Shown here one piece after another: positions 19,022 through 32,420 of a DNA stretch of 32,420 nucleotides. Positions within the stretch are counted from its first letter, which is position 1. Each line of letters begins with the position of its first letter. The position numbers and the translations under genes were made by a program. Source of the stretch: an uncultured Bacilli bacterium (lineage in GTDB: Bacteria; Bacillota_I; Bacilli_A; RF39; UBA660); contig CALVJD010000054.1 of assembly GCA_944332005.1 (NCBI GenBank), positions 1-32,420 of the forward strand, read 5' to 3'. The notes beneath the pieces were generated by a model. That model was given only the letters and a program-made list of their open reading frames with translations. It searched no databases and was not told where the DNA came from.

Positions 19022-19294
19022 TTATAATTTATCATAATGAGTCCACATTCTTAAAATAAATATTTCTTTTTTGTTCTCATCTATCTCATACACTAACCTA
19101 TGTTGATAGCTTATTCTTCTTGAACAAAGACCATTTAAGTTTCCTTTTAATTTTTCATATGTCGGTGGTGTTTGGTAAGGGTTTATTGCTATTAAATCTA
19201 GTAATTCTTTTGCTTTATTTTCAAGTCCAGCTTGCTTTAGTAATTTTTTGTCTTTATCAGCTAATTTAGAAAATATTATTTTGTATTCTACCAT
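19022..19294 (-). CDS. yoeB: YoeB/Txe-family toxin (ribosome-dependent mRNA endonuclease)
   Basis: The toxin has 90 residues and cuts mRNA in the ribosomal A site. Family features are complete: EKLKGNLNGLCSRRISYQHRLVYEI in the core (Glu and two Arg of the active site) and the C-terminal ILRMWTHYDKL with the catalytic His-Tyr pair. The start overlaps the antitoxin frame by 7 bp, as usual for this type II pair. Nothing indicates inactivation. It lies beside tRNA-Leu, a common place for mobile accessory genes, but no integrase is present. Confidence 0.95.
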   Translation of the reverse strand: MVEYKIIFSKLADKDKKLLKQAGLENKAKELLDLIAINPYQTPPTYEKLKGNLNGLCSRRISYQHRLVYEIDENKKEIFILRMWTHYDKL

Positions 19295-19542
19295 TCTTCA
19301 CCTTTTTTATAAACCGTGCAATTATTTTTATCCTCTTTCCTAGCATCATTGATAGATTCTACAAAGCCTGGTATAGAATTTAAATAAATAGTTTCTTCAA
19401 TATCTCGCCAATCACTTTCTGATAGCAATATAGCATTTTCACCTTTATTGTTGATTATATTGACTGGATTAAAGCCTTTATTTACATCAGAAACTAATTG
19501 AAATAAATTTTGTCTAGCCTTAGTTATATTTATAGTATTCAT
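19288..19542 (-). CDS. yefM: YefM/Phd-family antitoxin
   Basis: The antitoxin has 84 residues: an N-terminal DNA-binding fold (INITKARQNLFQLVSDVN; INNKGENAILLSESDWRDIEET) and a flexible acidic C-terminus (SINDARKEDKNN) that wraps YoeB. It neutralises the toxin and represses the operon. It is preceded by GGGGTG and by a promoter whose spacer contains a GTAC palindrome typical of YefM operators. Confidence 0.95.
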   Translation of the reverse strand: MNTINITKARQNLFQLVSDVNKGFNPVNIINNKGENAILLSESDWRDIEETIYLNSIPGFVESINDARKEDKNNCTVYKKGEEW

Positions 19543-19819: not shown

Positions 19820-21130
19820 CAATGCTTTAAACATTTTCTTCCATAATCCTTTCGAAGAATAATTTAAAATACCTACCTTATAAATTTTAAGCCCATATTT
19901 AATAAGAAGGTAATTGACGATGATCATAAGAATAATCGATATGATGACATCCATAACTCCAATATGACCTAATACCAATAAAGATGGAGATAATATGGCT
20001 GATATAAATGGAATATAAGATGCAATTCGGATAAAGATCGATCCTTGGAACATACTGGCCATAATCGCTAAGAAATATCCAATAAAGGAAATAATCATAA
20101 TTGGTGTTTGTAATTGTTGAAAGTCTTCAATATTTGTCGTCATACTAGCTAAAATACCAGCTAATAAGGAATAACCAATAAAAGTTAAAATCATGAGTAA
20201 TAATGTTAAAGGAATGATATAGATTAACTTATCACCTAATCCTCCACTCATAATTTGATTTACCGTTGCTCCAATTTCAGCACCAAATCCAGATCCTAAT
20301 ATATCTCCACTCAATCCACCTCGTACTAGGAAAGCAATTACTACAAATAGTACTAATAATGCTCCTTGGATGAGTACAAATAAATTACCAGCTAGTACTT
20401 TTGAAAAGAAATGTGTCTTTGGTGAAACATTGGAAATAATAATTTCCATACCTCTCGTGGTTTTTTCATCATTTACTTCTGCCCCAATCATCTGTACCAA
20501 AAAAATCGTAAGCATAAAAAACGGTAAAATAATCATCGGGAAAACAGTAGACATGATCATCTGGGCCCCTTCTGATTCACCTTTTTCATTCTCATTCAAA
20601 ATAACTCGTTCAATATTGGCAGGTTCATAAATCTTAGCCAGTTCTTCTGAAGAAATATTCGAATTTAACATTGCTAAGGCAACTTTCACATTATTGATCG
20701 AACTAGATACTAATTGATAAGGTACGCTATCAATATATCCTTTGGAAATTACTTGAACGAAAAGTTCTCCATTTTCATCATAATCAAAAGTGACAACGAT
20801 TAAATTTTTGTTTTCATTTGCTTCTTCGGTTAAGTCTTCAACATCCTCTTCCTTCTTTTCAACCTGATAACTACTTTCCTCGCTGTTATTCAAAGATTTT
20901 GACGCTTCGTCGAGCTGTTCTTTAAACATATCGTAAGCCATATTCGTCTCATCAACCACATAAACTGGTGTTTTTTCGTTGAAATCACCACCAAAGAAAT
21001 TAATAATACTATCGATATTAATAACACCAACAATCGCAACTAACAAAATCAAATTAGCGGCCAAAAACCATTTTGTTTTAATCTTTCGACTTAAACTAAT
21101 ACTAGTTAAATAATTCAGTTTACTTCTCAT
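19811..21130 (-). CDS. ABC-2 type permease (NatB-like)
   Basis: The protein has 439 residues: a cytoplasmic start, one helix (about 24-44), a large acidic extracytoplasmic domain (about 45-190, very Glu/Asp/Asn-rich) and a C-terminal group of five or six helices (from about 195) with VNDEKTTRGMEIIISNVSP, typical of NatB/YhaP permeases. With the ATPase next to it this forms an exporter; sodium, lipid or antibiotic efflux are all known for the family. It overlaps the ATPase gene by 11 bp. Confidence 0.9.
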   Translation of the reverse strand: MRSKLNYLTSISLSRKIKTKWFLAANLILLVAIVGVINIDSIINFFGGDFNEKTPVYVVDETNMAYDMFKEQLDEASKSLNNSEESSYQVEKKEEDVEDLTEEANENKNLIVVTFDYDENGELFVQVISKGYIDSVPYQLVSSSINNVKVALAMLNSNISSEELAKIYEPANIERVILNENEKGESEGAQMIMSTVFPMIILPFFMLTIFLVQMIGAEVNDEKTTRGMEIIISNVSPKTHFFSKVLAGNLFVLIQGALLVLFVVIAFLVRGGLSGDILGSGFGAEIGATVNQIMSGGLGDKLIYIIPLTLLLMILTFIGYSLLAGILASMTTNIEDFQQLQTPIMIISFIGYFLAIMASMFQGSIFIRIASYIPFISAILSPSLLVLGHIGVMDVIISIILMIIVNYLLIKYGLKIYKVGILNYSSKGLWKKMFKALKE

Positions 21131-22019
21131 AGCTTTCCCCTACTTTCTCAATAAAAATTTCATTCAACGATGGTTCTTCTACTACGAATTTTGTAATATC
21201 TTTCTTTTTACTGATTTTATGGAAAACTTTCTCGGAAACATCCATATTCGCAATTTTTACTTCAAGTTCATCTGCTTTTTCAATGACTTCTACGACACCA
21301 TCTATTTTCTCTACCTCTTCTTTTGTAACGTCTCCTTTGATTAAAATCGTCTTTTTTCGATAATCTTGTTTAATTTTCTTTAAATCTCCTTTTAAGACAG
21401 TCTTTCCATGCAACAAGATCACTAATTTTTTACAGAATAGTTCAACGTGTTCCATGCGATGTGATGAAAAGATAATCATGCTTCCTTTTTGTGACATCTC
21501 GACAATTTCTTTTTTAAATAGTTCGACATTAAAAGGATCTAATCCACTAAATGGCTCATCTAATATAAGCAATCTTGGATCATTGATAATAGCCGTAATG
21601 AATTGTACTTTTTGTTGATTTCCTTTCGATAGTTCTTTGATTTTTTTATCTTTATATTCTGTTATTTCAAAACGTGCGAGTAATTCATCTAAGCGACTTA
21701 AGATTTTCTCTTTACTCATCCCTTTTAACGTTCCATAAAATAGACATTGTTCTTTTACCGTCATTTTCGTAAGTAAACTTCTTTCCTCAGTCAAGAATCC
21801 AATTTGATCCGTAACATCATAGTCAATTGGTTTCCCATCCAGGGTAATACTACCACTACTCATATCCAGTAATCCCATAATCATACGAAAGGTAGTTGTC
21901 TTCCCGGCACCATTGACACCTAATAAACCGAAGATTTCTCCTGGCTTTACTTCAAAAGATAAATCGTCAACGGCTAAAAAATCTCCATAATACTTTGTAA
22001 CATGTTCTACTTTGAGCAT
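21120..22019 (-). CDS. ABC exporter ATPase (NatA-like)
   Basis: The protein has 299 residues: Walker A GVNGAGKTT (about 35-43), signature LSKGNQQKV, Walker B LLILDEPFSGLDP and switch His in FSSHRMEH, followed by an 80-residue C-terminal extension ending LNEIFIEKVGE, found in NatA/YhaQ/DrrA-type exporters. It drives the adjoining permease. Its ATG is 1 bp past the tagD stop, with the ribosome site GGAGG inside the end of tagD, so the three genes form an operon. A link to surface-polymer synthesis is suggested only by TagD. Confidence 0.94.
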   Translation of the reverse strand: MLKVEHVTKYYGDFLAVDDLSFEVKPGEIFGLLGVNGAGKTTTFRMIMGLLDMSSGSITLDGKPIDYDVTDQIGFLTEERSLLTKMTVKEQCLFYGTLKGMSKEKILSRLDELLARFEITEYKDKKIKELSKGNQQKVQFITAIINDPRLLILDEPFSGLDPFNVELFKKEIVEMSQKGSMIIFSSHRMEHVELFCKKLVILLHGKTVLKGDLKKIKQDYRKKTILIKGDVTKEEVEKIDGVVEVIEKADELEVKIANMDVSEKVFHKISKKKDITKFVVEEPSLNEIFIEKVGESYEK

Positions 22020-22020
22020 A

Positions 22021-22416
22021 TTATTTTCCTCCTAAATCTGCTTTAATTTGCGTCGTTGATATTCCCTCTGTACGTGGTAAATAAACAACTTCACATAAAT
22101 CTTTTAATTCTTCGAAATGAGGATCTCCTTCCCAATCACTCCCCATGACGACAGTATCGATATGATATTCTAACACATCACTTCGTTTCTGTCCCCATTC
22201 TTCTTCAGGAATCACGAGATCGACATAACGAATCGATTCTACTATTTTCTTTCTAGCATCATACGAATAATATGACTTTTTCCCTTTTATTTTATTGAAA
22301 TCATCAGTCGATATGGCAACAACCAAATAATCTCCCAATGCTTTCGCACGTTTTAATAAATTAATATGTCCTTCGTGCAATAAATCGTATGTGCCATATG
22401 TCAATATTCTTTTCAC
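22021..22416 (-). CDS. tagD: Glycerol-3-phosphate cytidylyltransferase
   Basis: The enzyme has 131 residues and makes CDP-glycerol from glycerol-3-phosphate and CTP, the precursor of poly-glycerol-phosphate teichoic acids and of glycerol-phosphate decorations on polysaccharides. Diagnostic motifs are GTYDLLHEGHINLLKRAK (HxGH, His 14/His 17) and the ending RTEGISTTQIK. The length is the full family length. It starts with GTG and has a weak site (TTGGTGAT). A TATAAT (22437-22432) is close upstream, and a second promoter and a structured RNA element lie at 22503-22613. No CDP-glycerol polymerase is in the window. Confidence 0.94.
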   Translation of the reverse strand: MKRILTYGTYDLLHEGHINLLKRAKALGDYLVVAISTDDFNKIKGKKSYYSYDARKKIVESIRYVDLVIPEEEWGQKRSDVLEYHIDTVVMGSDWEGDPHFEELKDLCEVVYLPRTEGISTTQIKADLGGK

Positions 22417-22502: not shown

Positions 22503-22578
22503 AAAAAAGAAAAAAGAGAGAGTAATAGTTTACCCCCTCCCGTATGCATATCGCATACAAATATCATTATTTGTTTGC
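22503..22578 (-). ncRNA. Structured RNA element upstream of tagD (copy 1 of 2): leader/attenuator or small RNA
   Basis: From a predicted start near 22578 the RNA can form a 7-bp hairpin ACAAATA / TATTTGT, or the overlapping 6-bp hairpin GTATGC-GATAT-GCATAC (22558-22542). It then forms a terminator whose 5' arm is the G-tract plus UAA (22541-22530), loop ACUA, and 3' arm UUACUCUCUCU (22525-22515), ending in long T-runs to 22503. The core (22555-22539) is identical to copy 2 at 32290-32274. The terminator stem is built on the same G-tract in both copies although the opposite arm differs. It ends 65 bp before a second TATAAT, so it could be an attenuating leader of tagD or a separate small RNA. 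Confidence 0.6.
22539..22555 (-). repeat. 17-nt core repeat, copy 1
   Basis: Identical to 32274-32290 and in the same orientation. It contains GCGATATGC followed by ATACGGG. No other copy is visible in the window. Confidence 0.85.
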
Positions 22579-22584
22579 AAGAAC

Positions 22585-22613
22585 ATTATAACAAATTCAT
22601 TTATGATGTGCAA
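22585..22613 (-). promoter_or_regulatory. Sigma-A promoter of the copy-1 RNA element
   Basis: TTGCAC, a 17-bp spacer and TATAAT on the minus strand begin 5 bp after the LCP gene stop (22618). The spacing and -10 are perfect. Confidence 0.8.
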
Positions 22614-24326: not shown

Positions 24327-25346
24327 TTATATAATTTTTTTCAATATTTTTGTTATCATTTCTTTATATTTAGTATTTAAATTATACTTATATGTCTTAT
24401 TTAAGTCTATTTTTTTTAAATAACTATCAACTTCTTCAATAGATTTACAAAAGAATATATAATCCAATTTTTCTAGCCATTTATATACTCCACTTACTTT
24501 TTTACTTTTATTATCTAACGCAATGCACGGAGTTGAAGTTATTGCAGCAAAAATCATTCCATGAAGTCTATCAGTAATAACTAATTCTGCTTTCATAAAT
24601 TCTTCTAACTTATTATTAAATATCCTATCTCGTTTCTTTAAAGAAATCCCTTTATTTAATACAGTAGTAGTCATCCTTACATTTTTATTATCTAATAATT
24701 CGTTAATTTTTTCTCCGTTTATATGTTTTTCTTTATCCGCTCGTAAAATAACTAAAATTCCATCTCGAATATATTTCTTATGTCTTTTTAAAGTCAATAC
24801 GACATCAGGAAGTAAATAATTACCTTTTACTTTTTTAAAATTCTTTTTACAAATTTTATAAGATTTTTCTTCTCTTGAGCATAAATAAATATTTTTATGT
24901 TTGTCAATTGTTTCTTTTAAAGATTTTAATTCTTTATTTCCTTCTTCATTATCATCAAAATAATAAGTTTGTGGCATAATTATAATTTTATTATCATTAA
25001 AATTATTTATTACATCTTTTATCATTTCTTCTTCATTCATCCACAAATTTCCTATCAAGCCTCCTCCAGTAATTACAATAATATCGGAAAGATGAACGTA
25101 ATTTAACACTAATTTTTTAGCTAACATATACCTCTCACCAGGAATTTCAATGATAGGTAATTGAAAACTTTTTAAAATATCTACGATAGCAATTGATATA
25201 GCATGATCTCCAATATTACCATGTAAAGGAGATCCAATATAAATGATTTTCTTTTCATCTGAATGTACTAAAGTCTTTTTTAGTTCTCTTTTTGATATGA
25301 TAATTTTAATTGCTTTTTGAATCTTTTTTGCTATTTTTTTTACCAT
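24327..25346 (-). CDS. Polysaccharide pyruvyl transferase family protein
   Basis: The protein has 339 residues in the GT-B-like family that adds pyruvate ketals to sugars from phosphoenolpyruvate (CsaB, WcaK, EpsI/O). Landmarks are IGSPLHGNIGDHAISIAI (37-54), VITGGGLIGNLWMNEE, IIIMPQTYYF and the late RLHGMIFAAITSTPCIALDN. The RLHG motif is the usual family signature. A very basic, Lys/Ile-rich N-terminus (VKKIAKKIQKAIK) could bind the membrane. Its start lies 41 bp inside the radical SAM gene. Pyruvylation would add negative charge to the polymer. It is the last gene of the AT-rich operon; no terminator was found. Confidence 0.88.
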   Translation of the reverse strand: MVKKIAKKIQKAIKIIISKRELKKTLVHSDEKKIIYIGSPLHGNIGDHAISIAIVDILKSFQLPIIEIPGERYMLAKKLVLNYVHLSDIIVITGGGLIGNLWMNEEEMIKDVINNFNDNKIIIMPQTYYFDDNEEGNKELKSLKETIDKHKNIYLCSREEKSYKICKKNFKKVKGNYLLPDVVLTLKRHKKYIRDGILVILRADKEKHINGEKINELLDNKNVRMTTTVLNKGISLKKRDRIFNNKLEEFMKAELVITDRLHGMIFAAITSTPCIALDNKSKKVSGVYKWLEKLDYIFFCKSIEEVDSYLKKIDLNKTYKYNLNTKYKEMITKILKKII

Positions 25347-26442
25347 ATACTTTTCTCACAATCTTTTTAGCGTTTTGTAAAGTTGTATATTTTACTTTTC
25401 GAACTAATCTATGTTTGTTAATTTTTTTCTTTCTCATTTCATCATATTCCTCATTGTTATCATATAATTTTTGACTCATGAATTCTTTCATTTTAGGTTG
25501 TAACCATTCGCCATCTGGTGTCACCCTGTTTCTTAAGCTAGCATAATTGACATCATTGCCAATTCCCGGTATATCTCCTAAAGCTAAATATGCGTGACCA
25601 TTATAACAGTGAGCAATTTGACAATTTTTTCCAATTGCTTCAAATTTTAATGGCTTATCTACATTTTCATATATATTATCAATAACTTTACTAAAATAAC
25701 ATTGTTTCATACTTCCAGTAGTTAAATTTATATAAACACTCCAGTCTCCAGCATAGCAAAATTCTTTTCTTTTTTTGTAAAAAATTTTAGATTTAAATTT
25801 AAACAAATCTGAATCAAACTGTCCCCATATTTTTTTATACTCATCAAAAGTTTTTTCAGATAAAACCTCTATACCACCGGTTCTATCATCTCTTGCAATT
25901 GTAACATGACATAAAGTACCCATTTTTTGCATACAAACTTTTTTTAATTCTTCAATATGAGGTATAAGTTCATCACTTGGAGTAATTTCCACTGTATAAG
26001 AACATCCTGCATCTTTCATCATTTGAATGTTTTCAAAATATTTATCTAATAAATTGAGTCTTAATAATTCTAAATAATGAAAAGAGAATTTAAATACTAA
26101 TCGTTCCAGAAGGTCTTTAGGAAACTTAGCAATTTCTTTAAATCTATTAGTCAAAGTTCCATTTGTTACTATCATAACATAATGACCTTCTTCAAGTAAG
26201 GCTTTTGTAACAGGAATAACTTCACTAGACAAGAGTGTTTCTCCTCCTGCACATAAATTAATTAAACATTTCCCACCTAATCTTTTAACTGATAATGCTT
26301 TCCTTATTTCCTCTGGAGTATGTCCAAATTTTGCTAATTTATTATTAAATTTTCTCATTTGTGCAATATAGCAATAATGACATCTTAAATTACATGTTTC
26401 CGTATCTATATAACATTCTATATATCTTTTTAACTTATCCAT
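25306..26442 (-). CDS. Radical SAM protein with SPASM-like C-terminus
   Basis: The enzyme has 378 residues. The radical SAM cluster motif is CNLRCHYC (Cys 17, 21, 24), with a following glycine-rich segment (NLCAGGETLLS) that binds SAM. The C-terminal third has further Cys: FCYAGDW, MKQCYF, KNCQIAHCYNGHAY, suggesting one or two auxiliary Fe-S clusters as in SPASM proteins. The tail is strongly basic. Within a polysaccharide operon it may modify a sugar or a carrier-linked intermediate, or a peptide not seen here; no peptide substrate gene is present. A strong AAGGAG ribosome site precedes the ATG. The 3' end overlaps the pyruvyl transferase gene. Confidence 0.88.
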   Translation of the reverse strand: MDKLKRYIECYIDTETCNLRCHYCYIAQMRKFNNKLAKFGHTPEEIRKALSVKRLGGKCLINLCAGGETLLSSEVIPVTKALLEEGHYVMIVTNGTLTNRFKEIAKFPKDLLERLVFKFSFHYLELLRLNLLDKYFENIQMMKDAGCSYTVEITPSDELIPHIEELKKVCMQKMGTLCHVTIARDDRTGGIEVLSEKTFDEYKKIWGQFDSDLFKFKSKIFYKKRKEFCYAGDWSVYINLTTGSMKQCYFSKVIDNIYENVDKPLKFEAIGKNCQIAHCYNGHAYLALGDIPGIGNDVNYASLRNRVTPDGEWLQPKMKEFMSQKLYDNNEEYDEMRKKKINKHRLVRKVKYTTLQNAKKIVRKVYGKKNSKKDSKSN

Positions 26443-26454
26443 ACTACATTCTCC

Positions 26455-27963
26455 TTATTTTTTTAATGTGTTAAAAAATAATTTAATCTTATTTTTATCA
26501 AATGAAACTAAACAGTTTATCACAAAACTTATTATACATAATAAAACCCCAAATAACAATAATTCAAGCCAAGTTTCAGGAAGAAAAAAGAATCTGATCA
26601 CATAGCCTATTATAACATTAATAATCACCGATAATAATGATTTAAATATTTCTGGAAAAAAAACTTTCCAGTTAAAGCCAAGATATTTAGCTCCAAATGG
26701 TACTGTATAAAATAGATTTCTAATAATGCTTAATGTTGTACTTACCCCAACAACAGCAATTATTCCTAAATTAGTGGTTTTTAAAAGTGCATAAACAATT
26801 AAGATGTTTAAAAAACCAGTTACACAAACTAAAATAGAATTGATTTTGATTTTATTAATTACCGTGAATACATTATGAATTATAGAAGCAGGGCCAATAA
26901 TTATCCAATGCGATATTGAAATGATGGACAATAATAGTAAGTAATTTGCATCTTGTGTTGGAAACCATAGCTTAAAAAGTATATCTCCCAAAACAATGAT
27001 GCATATGATTGGAATATTTAAGAAAATTCCTACAAATTGCATTTCTTCTTGTATCATATGTTTTAATTCTTCTTTTTTTTTCGTTGCATATGCTTTAGTC
27101 AAATTTGGCATAAATATTGTACTTAAATTACCAATGACCGTTCCAATAATATTTGGAATAATTTTAACTATTGCTAAAATACCCATCGATGTTGGATCTA
27201 AAAATAAATTTGTTACCAATAAATCTAACCCTTCAGATAAGACTGTACCTATTCTAGTGATAGAATTCCATATGCCAGAAACAAATAATACCTTTATTTT
27301 TTGAAAATCAAATTTACCTATTTTAATATTACCTATTAATTTTCTTTTATAGTATAAGTTGCATATTTGAATAAATGTTGTTGCAATTAAAGTTGCTAGT
27401 CCTACAAAAGCAATGTATGGAGAAAATTTTGTATAAATAACATATAGCAATATTGCTTTTATAAAATAACTAAACATATTAATTATAGATTGAATATATA
27501 ATTTATTTTTTATATAATAGGAAACAGATAAATTAGTTGTTAAGAGCCCTAATAATAAATTAAGTGCTAGAAATGTAAATAACATTTTTACATCTATTAC
27601 TAAATCGGGCGATATTTGAATAAAATTTTCTAAATTAATAATCAAAAAGGTAATGATAGGAATTGATATGATTACTAATATTAAATTTGCCCAGAAAGTT
27701 GCCGAATAATAACCATTTGCTTCCTCTATTTTATTCTTATGATATTCAACAGAAATAAATCTACTAGACATAGAATTTATTGCTAATGTTATTATTGTAA
27801 AGTAGTTTATAAAAGTATTTGCTAATTGAGTAAATCCATAGGCTTCTTCACTTACCGTGTTTACAATAAATGAACTCAAAAAGAAGTTAATTAATGCATT
27901 AACTACAAAAGCAAGAACTATTGCTATAAAATTAATTAACAATTCTTTTTTTTCCGTACTCAT
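26455..27963 (-). CDS. Polysaccharide flippase (Wzx-type, MOP superfamily)
   Basis: The protein has 502 residues and about 14 hydrophobic helices evenly spaced along its length, with the PST/Wzx look (N-terminal helix FIAIVLAFVVNALINFFLSS; NSITRIGTVLSEGLDLLVTN near the middle). It flips undecaprenyl-linked repeat units to the outside face of the membrane. The start ATG has AAAGG upstream. It lies 16 bp after the preceding glycosyltransferase gene and 12 bp before the radical SAM gene, in one operon. The substrate cannot be read from the sequence. Confidence 0.92.
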   Translation of the reverse strand: MSTEKKELLINFIAIVLAFVVNALINFFLSSFIVNTVSEEAYGFTQLANTFINYFTIITLAINSMSSRFISVEYHKNKIEEANGYYSATFWANLILVIISIPIITFLIINLENFIQISPDLVIDVKMLFTFLALNLLLGLLTTNLSVSYYIKNKLYIQSIINMFSYFIKAILLYVIYTKFSPYIAFVGLATLIATTFIQICNLYYKRKLIGNIKIGKFDFQKIKVLFVSGIWNSITRIGTVLSEGLDLLVTNLFLDPTSMGILAIVKIIPNIIGTVIGNLSTIFMPNLTKAYATKKKEELKHMIQEEMQFVGIFLNIPIICIIVLGDILFKLWFPTQDANYLLLLSIISISHWIIIGPASIIHNVFTVINKIKINSILVCVTGFLNILIVYALLKTTNLGIIAVVGVSTTLSIIRNLFYTVPFGAKYLGFNWKVFFPEIFKSLLSVIINVIIGYVIRFFFLPETWLELLLFGVLLCIISFVINCLVSFDKNKIKLFFNTLKK

Positions 27964-27979
27964 ATACTTACCTTTCTTT

Positions 27980-28954
27980 TTATTTTTTCAATAATAAAAA
28001 TAATTTTGAATATAAATTTAAATTAGTTAATAAAAGAACGACCATAAGTTTTTTTTGTAAGGGGATTAATTTGTTTTTGAAAAACACATTTTTATTGTTT
28101 TTTATTTTATCAACTACTTCTAATTGTTCTTTACCATCATAATGAGTTTTTATCATATTGTTTATCAATGATAAATAAACTAATAACTCATTACAACTAA
28201 CTTCTTCTTCGAATTCTTTTCTATCTTTAAAATATTCTTTTATTTCATCTACTGCTATTAGGACATCAAATCTTTTCTTGTTAAAAGTTGCCATAATACT
28301 ATTTTCTCTTTGGAGATAATAATATAATTTATCACTTATTAGTGCTACACTATTAGCTTTATCGTACAACTTATAAGTAGTAAAATTATCTTCATGAATT
28401 TTTCCAACCGGATATTTAATATGATTATCAGTAAATAAAGTCCTCTTATAAAGTTTGTTCCATACCATAATTTCGGTATTTTGATCTAAAGTAAATATAT
28501 CTTTTATAGCTTCACTTGAAGTATAAACTTTATCTTCTTTTTCTTTTCGAACTGATATTTTACCGTCTTCATCTATGTATTTAAAATTACAAGCTGCAAT
28601 ATCTGAATGATTTATTAAAGCCGCAATTAATAGCTTTTCAACATATTCACAAGACACAAAATCATCACTATCTATAAAGCATATATATTCCCCTTTTGCT
28701 TTATCTAGTCCAAAATTTCTAGCCTCACTAAGTCCACCATTTTCTTTATGAATAACTTTTATTCTCTTATCCTTTTGAGCATATTCATCGCATATTTTAC
28801 CACAATTATCTGGTGAACCATCATCCACTAAAATAACTTCAATATTTTTATATGTTTGCTTTATTATTGAATCAACACACTTTTTCAAGTATTGTTCCAC
28901 CTTATAGATTGGTACTACTACACTAACTAACACTTCTTCGCGTTTTCTATTCAT
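27980..28954 (-). CDS. Family 2 glycosyltransferase
   Basis: The enzyme has 324 residues and a GT-A fold: start strand SVVVPIYKVEQYLKKC, nucleotide site ILVDDGSPDNC, the ENGGLSEARNFGL segment and the metal-binding IDSDDF (about 95). The C-terminal 200 residues are helical and end hydrophobic. It transfers a sugar from a nucleotide donor to the lipid-linked repeat unit on the cytoplasmic face. It is a clear relative of the C-terminal half of the next gene upstream (both 324 residues), so they probably arose by duplication. The ATG overlaps that gene's TGA as ATGA. Confidence 0.93.
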   Translation of the reverse strand: MNRKREEVLVSVVVPIYKVEQYLKKCVDSIIKQTYKNIEVILVDDGSPDNCGKICDEYAQKDKRIKVIHKENGGLSEARNFGLDKAKGEYICFIDSDDFVSCEYVEKLLIAALINHSDIAACNFKYIDEDGKISVRKEKEDKVYTSSEAIKDIFTLDQNTEIMVWNKLYKRTLFTDNHIKYPVGKIHEDNFTTYKLYDKANSVALISDKLYYYLQRENSIMATFNKKRFDVLIAVDEIKEYFKDRKEFEEEVSCNELLVYLSLINNMIKTHYDGKEQLEVVDKIKNNKNVFFKNKLIPLQKKLMVVLLLTNLNLYSKLFLLLKK

Positions 28955-31227
28955 CTTGACTGTCCTTTCAATTTTCTAATAAAATTAATCATTTTTTTTG
29001 TAAAGTCATAATTAATAACAAAACACGTTAATTGAATTTTTCTTATTAAACTCATATTAGTAAATATTAACTCCAAATAATTGTTTCTGATATTTTTTTT
29101 CATCTGTTGTATTTCGTCTTGGAATTCAGTTTCATTTTCTGCTCCATAATAAGCTATCTTAGCAAGAAGTGAAAAATCCGAACGATCCCTTTTTTCTTTT
29201 ATAAGTTTTTGTATCTCTTTACTTTTGTTTTTTGAATAATCTGCCAAGTCGTCGCAGGCATCGAACAAGTCAAAGTCTCTTTTTCTAAACTTGTTTCTTG
29301 TTGTACTATTTTGGGACAATCTATAGTTGTAACAATATTTATTACTCTTTACTAATATATTCGCCTTATCTAGCGCTTTATAAATAAAAGGTATATCTTC
29401 GTTAATTTTCCCTTCAGGAAATTTTAAATGTTGAACTATTTTTTTGCTATATAAATAAGTACATGGAGAATATTCTCCGGTTTTCATACCATACTTCAAA
29501 TATTCAACTAAAATAGCATCACCTTTATATATTTTTTCATTAAAATGCTCAGTTTGAAAATCATAATCATTCTTTCTAATTTTAATAAAAGAGCAATCAG
29601 CATGATGTTTTTTTACTAAATAGTGTAGATAATCAAAGGTATCTAAATCAATCCAGTCATCACTATCAACAAAGCCAATATATTTACCTGTTGCAATATC
29701 CAGACCTTTGTTTCTAGCTGAGGCTTGACCACCATTTTCTTTATCAACAATAGTTATTCTTTTATCTTTTGCAGCATAAGCTTCACATATTTTTAAACTT
29801 TCATCTTTTGAACCATCATTAACTAAAATAATTTCTAAATTAGTATAAGATTGACTTATAATAGAGTCCAAACATTTTTTTAAATATTTTTCGGCATTAT
29901 AAATAGGAACAATTACACTTATTTTATCTTTTTGATTTTCTGAATATATTTCTAATTTTTCTTTTTTTATTATATGTAAAGAAGGAACCAGTTCATAAAG
30001 AACATACATTAATATAACTACAATTCCCGGATTATAAATAAATATAACTAATTTAATATTTCCAACAAGTAAAGAAATAAGAAAAAAGATTATCAAATGT
30101 GTATATTTAGAAGTTTGCTTTTTTATGATTACATAGCAAATATAGAATAATATAAAAATCATAATAGTTAATCCAATTAAACCAGTTCGCCATATTTCAT
30201 TAATATATCCAACATCTGAAGAAAAACCTAATATATCTGAAACTCCACCAAATCCAGCAATAGAATATCCTGCACCTATTATCACCCTAAACAAGGAAGG
30301 AAGTCTCCAAAAATTAGAACTGAATAGCACATTAGCTGTTCCCCAGTTTTTTGTAAAAAATGAGGAAAAATCTTTTATAATCCATTGTATAGTCAATGGT
30401 TTAACAAGATATACAACCAATAAAACTAGAAAAAGAATGATACTAGAACAAAGAATAACATTTTTGTATTCTTTTAATTTTCGATTACATATCAAACATA
30501 TAAACCATATTATAATGCCAATCCCAAATATAACTAATCCTGTTCGTGAATTTAAAATCACAATTAATAATAATAATGGAATGAAAGCCAAGAATTTCTT
30601 TCCATTTTTTAGACTGTAAAAAAGTGGTAAGGCCGCAATAATTCCCGATCCGAATCCAAAAGCATCAACCATTCCATTAGAATATCCATAAAAACGTCTT
30701 GGCACATGAAACTTATCAACGAACAATTCGTCACCAGTTAAATAATATAATAGGCTTAATAAGAATGATTTAAAACTAGGAAACAAAAACGATAATAAAC
30801 AAATCACACCTTGTATTGTTCCAGCATAAATTGTTAGTCTAATTACTTTTTCAAAAGCTATGTTATTCCTTTTCGCATATATTAAAACAAACAATACACA
30901 CAATAAAGTTATTGGAATAACTAACCCCATTGAATACAAATTTATAAATATATTATAAAAATAAATTTCGTCATAAATTAGATAATTAATTATAATTGAT
31001 ATTCCATACCAACCAAAATACAAAAAAAACAAAAAGGCAATTTTTTTTATTTCTTTTTCTTTAAAAAACTTAATCGTATCTTTTTTATATTTAGTTATTA
31101 ACATAATAAAGCTAAATACAAAAACTATTAATAAAGTATTTACATTTTTTATTATTGGTGGAGCATATAGTAACATAAAAATATATATAGTTAACATTAT
31201 GCTTTTAATTTTTTGACTACTTATCAT
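28951..31227 (-). CDS. Wzy-type polymerase fused to a family 2 glycosyltransferase
   Basis: The protein has 758 residues in two parts. Residues 1-434 carry about 11-12 membrane helices with a longer loop before the last ones (around LFSSNFWRLPSLFRVIIGAGYS) and look like an O-antigen/capsule polymerase or ligase. Residues 435-758 are a complete 324-residue GT-A transferase: ISVIVPIYNAEKYLKKC, LVNDGSKDESL, ENGGQASARNKGL, VDSDDWIDL. The join (EIYSENQKDK) is short and in frame, with no stop or frameshift. Coupling polymerisation to a transfer step in one chain is unusual. The ATG is 2 bp after the upstream gene's stop. Specificity is unknown. Confidence 0.88.
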   Translation of the reverse strand: MISSQKIKSIMLTIYIFMLLYAPPIIKNVNTLLIVFVFSFIMLITKYKKDTIKFFKEKEIKKIAFLFFLYFGWYGISIIINYLIYDEIYFYNIFINLYSMGLVIPITLLCVLFVLIYAKRNNIAFEKVIRLTIYAGTIQGVICLLSFLFPSFKSFLLSLLYYLTGDELFVDKFHVPRRFYGYSNGMVDAFGFGSGIIAALPLFYSLKNGKKFLAFIPLLLLIVILNSRTGLVIFGIGIIIWFICLICNRKLKEYKNVILCSSIILFLVLLVVYLVKPLTIQWIIKDFSSFFTKNWGTANVLFSSNFWRLPSLFRVIIGAGYSIAGFGGVSDILGFSSDVGYINEIWRTGLIGLTIMIFILFYICYVIIKKQTSKYTHLIIFFLISLLVGNIKLVIFIYNPGIVVILMYVLYELVPSLHIIKKEKLEIYSENQKDKISVIVPIYNAEKYLKKCLDSIISQSYTNLEIILVNDGSKDESLKICEAYAAKDKRITIVDKENGGQASARNKGLDIATGKYIGFVDSDDWIDLDTFDYLHYLVKKHHADCSFIKIRKNDYDFQTEHFNEKIYKGDAILVEYLKYGMKTGEYSPCTYLYSKKIVQHLKFPEGKINEDIPFIYKALDKANILVKSNKYCYNYRLSQNSTTRNKFRKRDFDLFDACDDLADYSKNKSKEIQKLIKEKRDRSDFSLLAKIAYYGAENETEFQDEIQQMKKNIRNNYLELIFTNMSLIRKIQLTCFVINYDFTKKMINFIRKLKGQSR

Positions 31228-31229
31228 AA

Positions 31230-32060
31230 CTACTTACACTTCTTCCTTAATATCTTGTTATAGAAAAATATTCTTATATCACTTGGAACATAAACAAATG
31301 TATACATACCAATCAAATTACGTATTCTTTGTATTGAATTTATAAAATTATGTTCATATAAATATTTTTGTAATTTTTTCCAACCTTTTATATATCTTTT
31401 ATCCCCACGTCTTTTCTCAAACCCATTTCCTATTCTCGCATGTACTAATACATAAGGTATATTTTCTATTTTTTTATTATTTACCAAAACTCTAGCCCAT
31501 AAATAATGGTCTTCTAGATAAAATAATGGTTGATAATTACCGACTCCTAATACATCTTTTTTTCTGAAACATACTGTCATGTGATTGATTGGATTTCTGA
31601 ATTTCGCATATTTTTTGACATTCTCATAGGAACAAGGCATTGTTTTTGTTCTTTCTATTTTCTCTGGATCTTCAATAAATTCATCCAAAAAACCACCAAC
31701 CACACTCACATCTTTATGTTCTTCCATATATTTAATTTGCTTTTCAAAACGATCCGGTACAGACACGTCATCTGTATCCATTCGCATAACAATATTATAT
31801 TTACATTTTTTTAAGCCAAGATTTAAAGCATTTCCTAATCCTTGATTCTGCTCTAATGCAACAATATTAAATATTTTAGGAAATTTTTGTTGATATTTGT
31901 CCAATACAATTTCCAATTCTTCCGTTAATGTTCCATCTTTTACGAGAACTATTTCATTTGGTAAGATCGTTTGATCAATCAAAATACTTTTTAAGCATAA
32001 GTCAAAATATTCAGGCTTTTCTTTATAATAAATTGACATTAATACCGAAAATTTTAGCAT
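31230..32060 (-). CDS. Family 2 glycosyltransferase (first gene of the operon)
   Basis: The enzyme has 276 residues: N-terminal strand FSVLMSIYYKEKPEYFDLCL, the donor site EIVLVKDGTL, and the metal motif MRMDTDDVSVPDRF (about 92-105), followed by GGFLDEF and NPINHMTVCFRKKDV, a pattern seen in capsule GT2 enzymes of the WaaE/KdtX or rhamnosyl type. There are no membrane helices, so it acts on the cytoplasmic side. It is the promoter-proximal gene: AGGGAG precedes its ATG, a good promoter lies at 32156-32184, and the 89-nt leader has two palindromes. Confidence 0.92.
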   Translation of the reverse strand: MLKFSVLMSIYYKEKPEYFDLCLKSILIDQTILPNEIVLVKDGTLTEELEIVLDKYQQKFPKIFNIVALEQNQGLGNALNLGLKKCKYNIVMRMDTDDVSVPDRFEKQIKYMEEHKDVSVVGGFLDEFIEDPEKIERTKTMPCSYENVKKYAKFRNPINHMTVCFRKKDVLGVGNYQPLFYLEDHYLWARVLVNNKKIENIPYVLVHARIGNGFEKRRGDKRYIKGWKKLQKYLYEHNFINSIQRIRNLIGMYTFVYVPSDIRIFFYNKILRKKCK

Positions 32061-32094: not shown

Positions 32095-32118
32095 TACTTA
32101 GGTGAATTCACCTAAGTA
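32095..32118. promoter_or_regulatory. Perfect 24-bp palindrome in the operon leader
   Basis: The arm TACTTAGGTGAA is followed directly by its exact complement. The inner halves TTAGGT / ACCTAA resemble DtxR/MntR-type metalloregulator half-sites, though with a 6-bp spacing. It lies about 30-55 bp downstream of the predicted transcription start. Read on the plus strand it is followed by TTTTTT, so it would also act as a terminator for transcription coming from the left. Confidence 0.6.
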
Positions 32119-32137
32119 TTTTTTGTATACAAAAAAT
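32118..32137. promoter_or_regulatory. Perfect 20-bp palindrome next to the first
   Basis: Centred on GTATAC with arms of ATTTTTT/AAAAAAT, sharing one base with the 24-bp palindrome. It may be a second protein site or a weak hairpin in the leader. Confidence 0.55.
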
Positions 32138-32155
32138 TAATTGCCTCTCTTGTTC

Positions 32156-32184
32156 ATTATATCATATTCGACAATATCTGCCAA
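32156..32184 (-). promoter_or_regulatory. Sigma-A promoter of the polysaccharide operon
   Basis: TTGGCA, a 17-bp spacer and TATAAT on the minus strand, predicted start near 32149. An inverted repeat TTGAC / GTCAA lies just upstream (about 32199-32216). Confidence 0.85.
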
Positions 32185-32244: not shown

Positions 32245-32300
32245 AAAAAAGGAAGGTATATAAATACCCCCCCCCCGTATGCATATCGCAAACACGGGAT
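32245..32300 (-). ncRNA. Structured RNA element upstream of the polysaccharide operon (copy 2 of 2)
   Basis: It contains the 17-nt core (32290-32274) in a hairpin CCCGT...ATACGGG with a small bulge, then a run of ten G. The last of these, with UAU, pair with AUACCUUCC (32259-32251) around loop UUAU. Six T follow (32250-32245). This is the same architecture as copy 1 at 22503-22578, but the opposite arm is changed. It ends 61 bp before the -35 of the operon promoter. Its own promoter is unclear; a TATGAT (about 32309-32304) lacks a good -35. A small RNA or attenuator is possible. Confidence 0.5.
32274..32290 (-). repeat. 17-nt core repeat, copy 2
   Basis: Identical to 22539-22555. Here it is flanked by a ten-base C-run on the plus strand (32267-32276), of which the core includes the last three. 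Confidence 0.85.
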
Positions 32301-32420
32301 GTTATCATATTTTTGGACACTTTTTACAGGGGGTTTTGTTCCCTATAAAAAAGCGTCTTCCCCTCGACTGCTTCTTGCACACTATTTTATTATTTCTTTA
32401 TGTTTTCATTCTATCATTTT
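32301..32420. other. Non-coding right edge of the window
   Basis: No reading frame stands out. It holds TGGACACTTTTTACA (32314-32328), which on the other strand reads like the end of some IS3-group elements, and a bulged hairpin GCAGTC / GACGC followed by T6 on the minus strand (about 32346-32371), a possible terminator for a gene beyond the window. Neither is firm. Confidence 0.35.

Follow-up and report, generated by a model that had tools for sequence, protein, structure and literature searches.

A family of putative attenuator leaders with poly-G-armed terminators upstream of surface genes in an uncultured Bacilli lineage

The window (the whole stretch of DNA analysed, 32,420 nucleotides, which is contig 54 of the host genome) contains the same 17-nt core, TGCGATATGCATACGGG, ahead of two operons for surface polymers, and the question is what such a short shared element does there. 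An earlier note, made from the sequence alone, took it for part of a conserved leader that co-regulates the two operons. When the window is searched again, the core is exact at 22539-22555 and at 32274-32290, on the minus strand in both cases, and each copy has the stem with a 4-nt loop and then the T-run that had been described: GGGAGGGGGTAA-ACTA-TTACTCTCTCTT in copy 1 and GGGGGGGGGGTAT-TTAT-ATACCTTCCTTTT in copy 2. A simple terminator scan of the minus strand missed the second of these, probably since the G-tract of this copy can pair with the T-run as well. The promoter reported as 'perfect' ahead of copy 1 is a promoter-like site that ends at 22585 and matches the consensus at 10 of 12 positions rather than all of them; it can also be read as TGCACA-16-TATAAT. 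Its position relative to the leader is kept at the tagD locus of the sister species (L096). The features of both copies are collected in Table 1.

Table 1. Features of the two leader copies and their downstream genes, in window coordinates
Feature	Position	Strand	Remarks
Copy 1 upstream promoter, TTGCAC-17-TATAAT	22585..22613	-	TG before -10; 10/12
Copy 1 P1 hairpin, GTATGC-GATAT-GCATAC, minimal form	22542..22558	-	holds most of the 17-nt core
Copy 1 intrinsic terminator: purine arm GGGAGGGGG, loop ACTA, arm TTACTCTCTCTT	22514..22541	-	12 pairs; T-rich tail after
tagD-like cytidylyltransferase after copy 1	22021-22416	-	
ABC transporter ATPase after copy 1	21120-22019	-	
Copy 2 5' half, from insertion element	32377..32420	-	-10 TAGAAT 32408-32413; P1 5' arm GTGTGC 32377-32382
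IS3-like terminal repeat TCCAAAAATATGATAACATCCC joining the leader 3' half	32296..32317	-	5 such ends in genome, 4 in leaders
Copy 2 leader 3' half, TGCGATATGCATAC	32277..32290	-	P1 3' arm GCATAC at 32277-32282
Copy 2 terminator: G10 arm, loop TTAT, arm ATACCTTCC, T-run	32245..32276	-	
Second promoter candidate, TTGGCA-17-TATAAT, copy 2 to glycosyltransferase operon	32156..32184	-	11/12
Polysaccharide genes after copy 2 (glycosyltransferases, flippase-like, pyruvyl transferase, others)	24327..32060	-	

Two copies in one contig say little about how widely an element is used, and the search can be extended to the host genome, from a gut-type bacterium (83 contigs with 1,135,472 bases in all, estimated to be 89.9% complete). 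The core with up to three mismatches occurs there 20 times, and 19 of these matches are genuine by context; the remaining one (L020) is a chance match. A reversed control pattern, used in the same search, gives no match at all, and the repetition of the core in the host is not due to chance. From 14 canonical copies a covariance model was made, which returns 30 matches in the host; in a sister species (congener G001) it returns 14. Three of the host matches are 5' halves severed by an insertion element, and the other 27 keep the 3' half; two low-scoring matches (L062 476-553 and L069 3796-3857) were discarded. Another 58 genomes were searched with stricter filters, so that weak relatives may escape. 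The only match, a weak one (E 0.009), is in G028, which belongs to another genus; the other 57 genomes, of which 34 are members of the same family, have none. Nor is there a match in the viral contigs searched. Exact-pattern matches in three Clostridia MAGs (L100-L102) lie in coding-like sequence and are regarded as chance. The covariance models of Rfam give neither a gathering match nor a credible weak match at the window element. The leader family is thus genus-specific and apparently uncatalogued. The weak G028 match (L098 29-121) consists of a small hairpin (GGUGUAAUAUACC) and then a G9-armed terminator at a contig end; it is possibly a distant relative of the element.

Read from 5' to 3', the element is made up of a promoter, an A/U-rich segment, a hairpin (P1), a poly-G-armed terminator and a T-run. 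The promoter has a TG-extended -10 box (TTGTCA or similar, 17 bases, TAAAAT or similar), and in about 33 of the 38 copies checked it stands at a nearly constant distance from the leader while the spacer sequence varies. The A/U-rich 5' segment is AAATARTAAWATRG. In P1, GUGUGC pairs with GCACAC (GUAUGC with GCAUAC in copy 1 and its sister orthologue), and the arms are separated either by the pentaloop RAUAU alone or by RAUAU with an insert of about 20-110 nt on the 5' side. The former, minimal form (AAATAATAAAATGA GTGTGC GATAT GCACAC) is common in the sister species, and thus the long form looks like an elaboration. A purine tract, mostly of 8-11 G, directly follows P1 and is the 5' arm of the terminator; the 3' arm is of the type AUACCUCUC and leads into the T-run. 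An inner stem of the long form, P2 (GCAA/UUGC), was considered and is not relied on, since pairing is seen in only 73% of its cells and the 3' UUGC stays the same in copies whose 5' side has changed. In copy 1 and in its sister orthologue L096, a second 5' hairpin (GCAAACAAAU..AUUUGUAUGC; window 22533-22579, minus strand) is possible, and its formation would exclude that of P1; for copy 1, minimum-energy folding favours this hairpin over P1.

The case for an RNA structure comes from the pattern of changes among copies. Over 47 matches, 92.2% of cells pair, both sides change in 13 of the 19 pairs (4 of 6 in P1 and 6 of 9 in the terminator) and cells with changes on both sides number 39, against 9.8 +/- 2.7 in shuffles (0/500), all figures that lean towards structure because the alignment had been made to fit the model and contains the two discarded matches as well as many paralogues, whose cells are not independent. 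The structure score drops at every offset when the partners are slid against each other. Independent support comes from the purine tract: it is paired from end to end in 33 of 37 copies, and all 18 A's that interrupt it lie opposite U and none opposite C (Fisher p about 2e-5, again with cells that are not independent). The earlier suggestion that pairing is kept although the sequence on the 3' side differs is therefore borne out by compensating changes across the copies.

The genes that follow were named by reading, except for those in the window. All 27 leaders with a 3' half precede envelope or surface genes. Variable surface proteins account for 17 of them; these are predicted to be secreted and start like MKK..YAVTTLYEAKEVGYDN..SNTDVQGALDELYE. 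Pilin-like genes (GFTLIELLAVIVILAVIAL) follow another six, and the last four stand before tagD and the ABC exporter, the polysaccharide (glycosyltransferase) operon, a LicD-like gene and one more probable membrane protein. The support that the earlier note had named, namely numerous copies ahead of envelope genes and covariation in the stems, is thus what a covariance-model search returns, with 30 host copies whose stems covary. Its view of a conserved leader needs to be widened in one respect: a leader with a terminator is supported by the copies, their covariation and the envelope genes, but the element is spread genome-wide and serves mostly variable surface proteins rather than two polymer operons.

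The distance between terminator and gene is informative about function. About 20 nt separate the T-run from the start codon that follows it in 15 of the 17 surface genes, which leaves space for a ribosome-binding site only, and so transcription must either read through the terminator or start inside it. At the pilin, tagD and glycosyltransferase copies and at two of the surface-gene copies the gap is longer and holds a second promoter candidate after the terminator. For the operon of copy 2, this second candidate, 3' of the terminator, is the stronger one. In most copies the element comes directly after a co-directional gene. At eno and tig it follows the stop codon immediately and has no promoter of its own; these copies would therefore act on the transcript of the upstream gene and also terminate a housekeeping gene.

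On balance we favour, as a somewhat probable reading of the sequences, that the element is a dispersed, genus-specific transcription attenuator. The layout expected of one is found, with a promoter upstream and a terminator between promoter and gene, and the lack of room for another promoter in those 15 surface genes is a reason for preferring it. A vegetative-type promoter, taken as constitutive, would make a leader RNA of a predicted 60-100 nt, which would fold P1 directly against the poly-G-armed terminator. Most polymerases would then stop at the T-run, shortly before the surface-gene start codon, and read-through would set expression of the gene. The 5' segment and P1 are conserved beyond what a terminator needs, which suggests that they are bound by one shared factor; together they may serve as the address by which this factor takes polymerase past the terminator on all copies. 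Folds of representative leaders contain no alternative antiterminator pairing of the terminator arms. At the pilin, tagD and glycosyltransferase copies, the second promoter candidates would bypass attenuation.

The poly-G tract may add a further layer. There are 19 distinct places with eight or more G in the host genome, and 18 of them are arms of these terminators. Tract lengths vary among paralogues and between the two species. A pattern for poly-G-armed terminators has matches in both congeners and in G028; elsewhere it has a single stray match, and in the control none. Other genera place the tract differently: the pattern TTGAC-N-G7+-TANNAT, which is absent from the host genome, has more than 40 matches in eight other genera (seven of this family; control 0), mostly before genes for surface or membrane proteins, and these poly-G promoter spacers are probably phase-variable promoters. 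Genomes with spacers of seven or more G are G010, G011, G014, G017, G024, G027, G036 and G053 (e.g. L139, L145, L140). The genes behind these promoters include relatives of the same surface-protein family, with tracts of G7-G10. In contingency loci of the Neisseria porA/opc type, a poly-G tract likewise occupies the promoter spacer ahead of surface genes. Other genera of the host's family have this arrangement too, whereas in the host the tract pairs within the terminator and the upstream promoter is separate.

Slippage of the tract in the leader terminators is plausible, because tracts of eight or more G are nearly all such arms and because of the promoter-spacer tracts in other genera, and it might give each copy a heritable setting of its own. 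With the T-run kept open in the calculation, predicted terminator stability hardly rises beyond six G, so slippage by one base around 8-11 G is not an obvious on/off switch. Even so, an explanation is still needed for why the tract is so pure when the genome is AT-rich and an A opposite U would pair no worse. We regard it as tentative, and rather doubtful as a whole, that the terminator is phase-variable, with slippage of the poly-G arm setting about 27 surface loci singly, the shared hairpin and a shared factor controlling all of them, and related genera using the tract in promoters.

Several other explanations need to be weighed against attenuation. The core could itself be a phase-variable promoter, with TTGCRA as -35 box, nine bases, the poly-G and TATTAT as -10 box, in which tract length sets the spacer and the stem-loop is secondary. 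Boxes that match the consensus at 4 of 6 (TTGCRA) and 5 of 6 (TATTAT) positions do flank the tract in canonical long copies, and the promoters of the eight other genera provide a parallel. Over the leader family a -10-like hexamer at 5/6 is present in roughly 21 of 37 copies, a -35-like one reaches 4-5/6 at most, and spacers would be of 16-21, most of them 18-20. About 16 copies have a poor -10-like hexamer (TATTTA, TAAATA, CATTAT) and yet keep the stem by compensation, the short forms have no -35 box, and a good promoter already lies upstream of the leader; we consider this explanation unlikely. We think it a little less likely again that the element is an independent unit, a short terminated (small) RNA with an insulating terminator that leaves the downstream gene unattenuated. 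The copies with a second promoter candidate and the frequent position behind a co-directional gene are what such a unit would lead one to expect, but there is no place for a separate promoter in the great majority of surface genes (15/17). Much the same material could also be read as a non-functional dispersed repeat, carried about by gene duplication and insertion elements, given that many copies precede paralogous genes and that part of the sequence recurs in an IS3-like element. Covarying stems, G-tract purity against an AT-rich background, the fixed promoter distance and the fact that the element is conserved ahead of unrelated genes (tagD, for example, in two species) make this very unlikely.

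The remaining alternatives accept the terminator and differ in how it is overcome. Leader control of envelope polymer genes in Bacillota is familiar from EAR, the Bacillus exopolysaccharide antiterminator RNA, and in C. difficile the surface protein CwpV is controlled at an invertible leader terminator (cwpV and related switches). The latter resembles the present element in leader-terminator control of a surface protein, and no invertible segment is seen here; unlike EAR, the element has a much simpler structure, lacks an Rfam match and stands mostly before protein genes. Processive antitermination of the LoaP/EAR type acting on P1 is the least probable of the explanations. It would suit the layout, since in the LoaP-controlled dfn leader a small hairpin is likewise followed by an intrinsic terminator (PMC12691694). 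However, there is no EAR match, the P1 loop RAUAU is not a UNCG hairpin, and only one NusG-family gene and no paralogue of it is found in a genome that is about 90% complete, so that absence is not final. The dfn and mln leaders (PMC12691694) moreover have another hairpin and serve long biosynthetic operons, in contrast to the short surface-gene units here. The EAR/LoaP analogy drawn in the earlier note is thus not sustained, with a single NusG-family gene found and no Rfam match in the window.

The nearest precedent is pil1/pil3 of Streptococcus gallolyticus, where a promoter, a slippage-prone repeat, a premature stem-loop terminator and appendage genes are combined in one leader, which joins phase variation to attenuation (PMC3894217). 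There the repeat consists of 5-nt GCAGA units in a leader peptide upstream of the terminator (PMC3894217). The present element has in common with it the promoter, a repeat that may be prone to slippage, the leader terminator and the surface genes, and differs in having poly-G inside the terminator arm, a conserved hairpin, about 27 loci and no conserved leader peptide. Translation-coupled attenuation of the pil1 kind, in which slippage would shift the frame of a leader peptide and ribosomes would open the terminator, has this precedent of pili, repeats and leader terminator (PMC3894217) in its favour, and canonical long copies do have AAAGGA and then TTG or ATG, with a frame open across the tract. 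We nevertheless consider it highly improbable: such a frame exists in only 14 of 36 copies and in none of the short, IS-hybrid or window copies, and in every listed case it stops more than 20 nt past the tract, so that the frame would hardly matter. Control by c-di-GMP, suggested by the pilin- and adhesin-like targets, was also considered and rejected; there is no riboswitch match, and the one GGDEF gene has a degenerate SGNEF motif.

A different kind of evidence on attenuation comes from copy 2, which is a hybrid: the 5' half of this copy is part of the end of an IS3-like insertion element, and the -35 box of its promoter falls beyond the contig end. The contig probably ends at 32420 because the IS3-like element is repeated. 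Other hybrid leaders are L080, L081 and L078 in the host and L087 (1-443) and L088 in the sister species. In the hybrids, the right end of the IS adjoins the leader 3' half and brings with it an outward-facing promoter and another leader 5' half, in which GTGTGC or GTATGC is present, while the opposite IS ends (L079, L082, L083, L095) adjoin leader 5' halves. Within the host, four of five right ends and all three left ends are in leaders, and the IS3-like element occupies the same spot in each leader that it enters. Three of the hybrid copies have an A-C mismatch in P1. The element appears, as far as its sequence goes, to re-create the leader that it interrupts, restoring both the promoter and the P1 arm, which suggests that an intact leader matters. 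This would be an unusual form of target-site mimicry. The assignment to a transposase is weak (HTH_Tnp_1 E 0.026 and rve_2 E 0.0014, on short pieces). One right end without a leader half (L138, G000:C33:8743-8764) lies in coding-like sequence, so two versions of the IS exist.

If the attenuator reading is correct, one uncultured lineage runs a variable repertoire of surface proteins through a single repeated attenuator, and P1 becomes a concrete target in the search for a putative antitermination factor. The poly-G promoters that relatives have for the same gene family would offer a natural comparison of two designs for surface variation. In the open-access literature searched on poly-G terminators and phase variation, which was not exhaustive, we find no equivalent.

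Several further observations concern the surroundings of these leaders. The host carries a diversity-generating retroelement (L199, G000:C55, 3826-3922 and 4117-5241; L062, 9492-9591), with a frame for a 375-aa reverse transcriptase and then the template repeat. The variable repeat is near the 3' end of a leader-bearing surface gene, and 14 of its 15 substitutions fall at template adenines; at least one leader-controlled surface protein would thus be diversified by the retroelement. In the window, two adjacent small genes at 19022-19542 resemble, by reading, an antitoxin-toxin pair of the YefM/YoeB type. Between the second promoter of copy 2 and the first glycosyltransferase gene there are two palindromes, at 32095-32118 (TACTTAGGTGAATTCACCTAAGTA) and at about 32121-32138 (TTTTTTGTATACAAAAAA), which are possibly operators or a second terminator.
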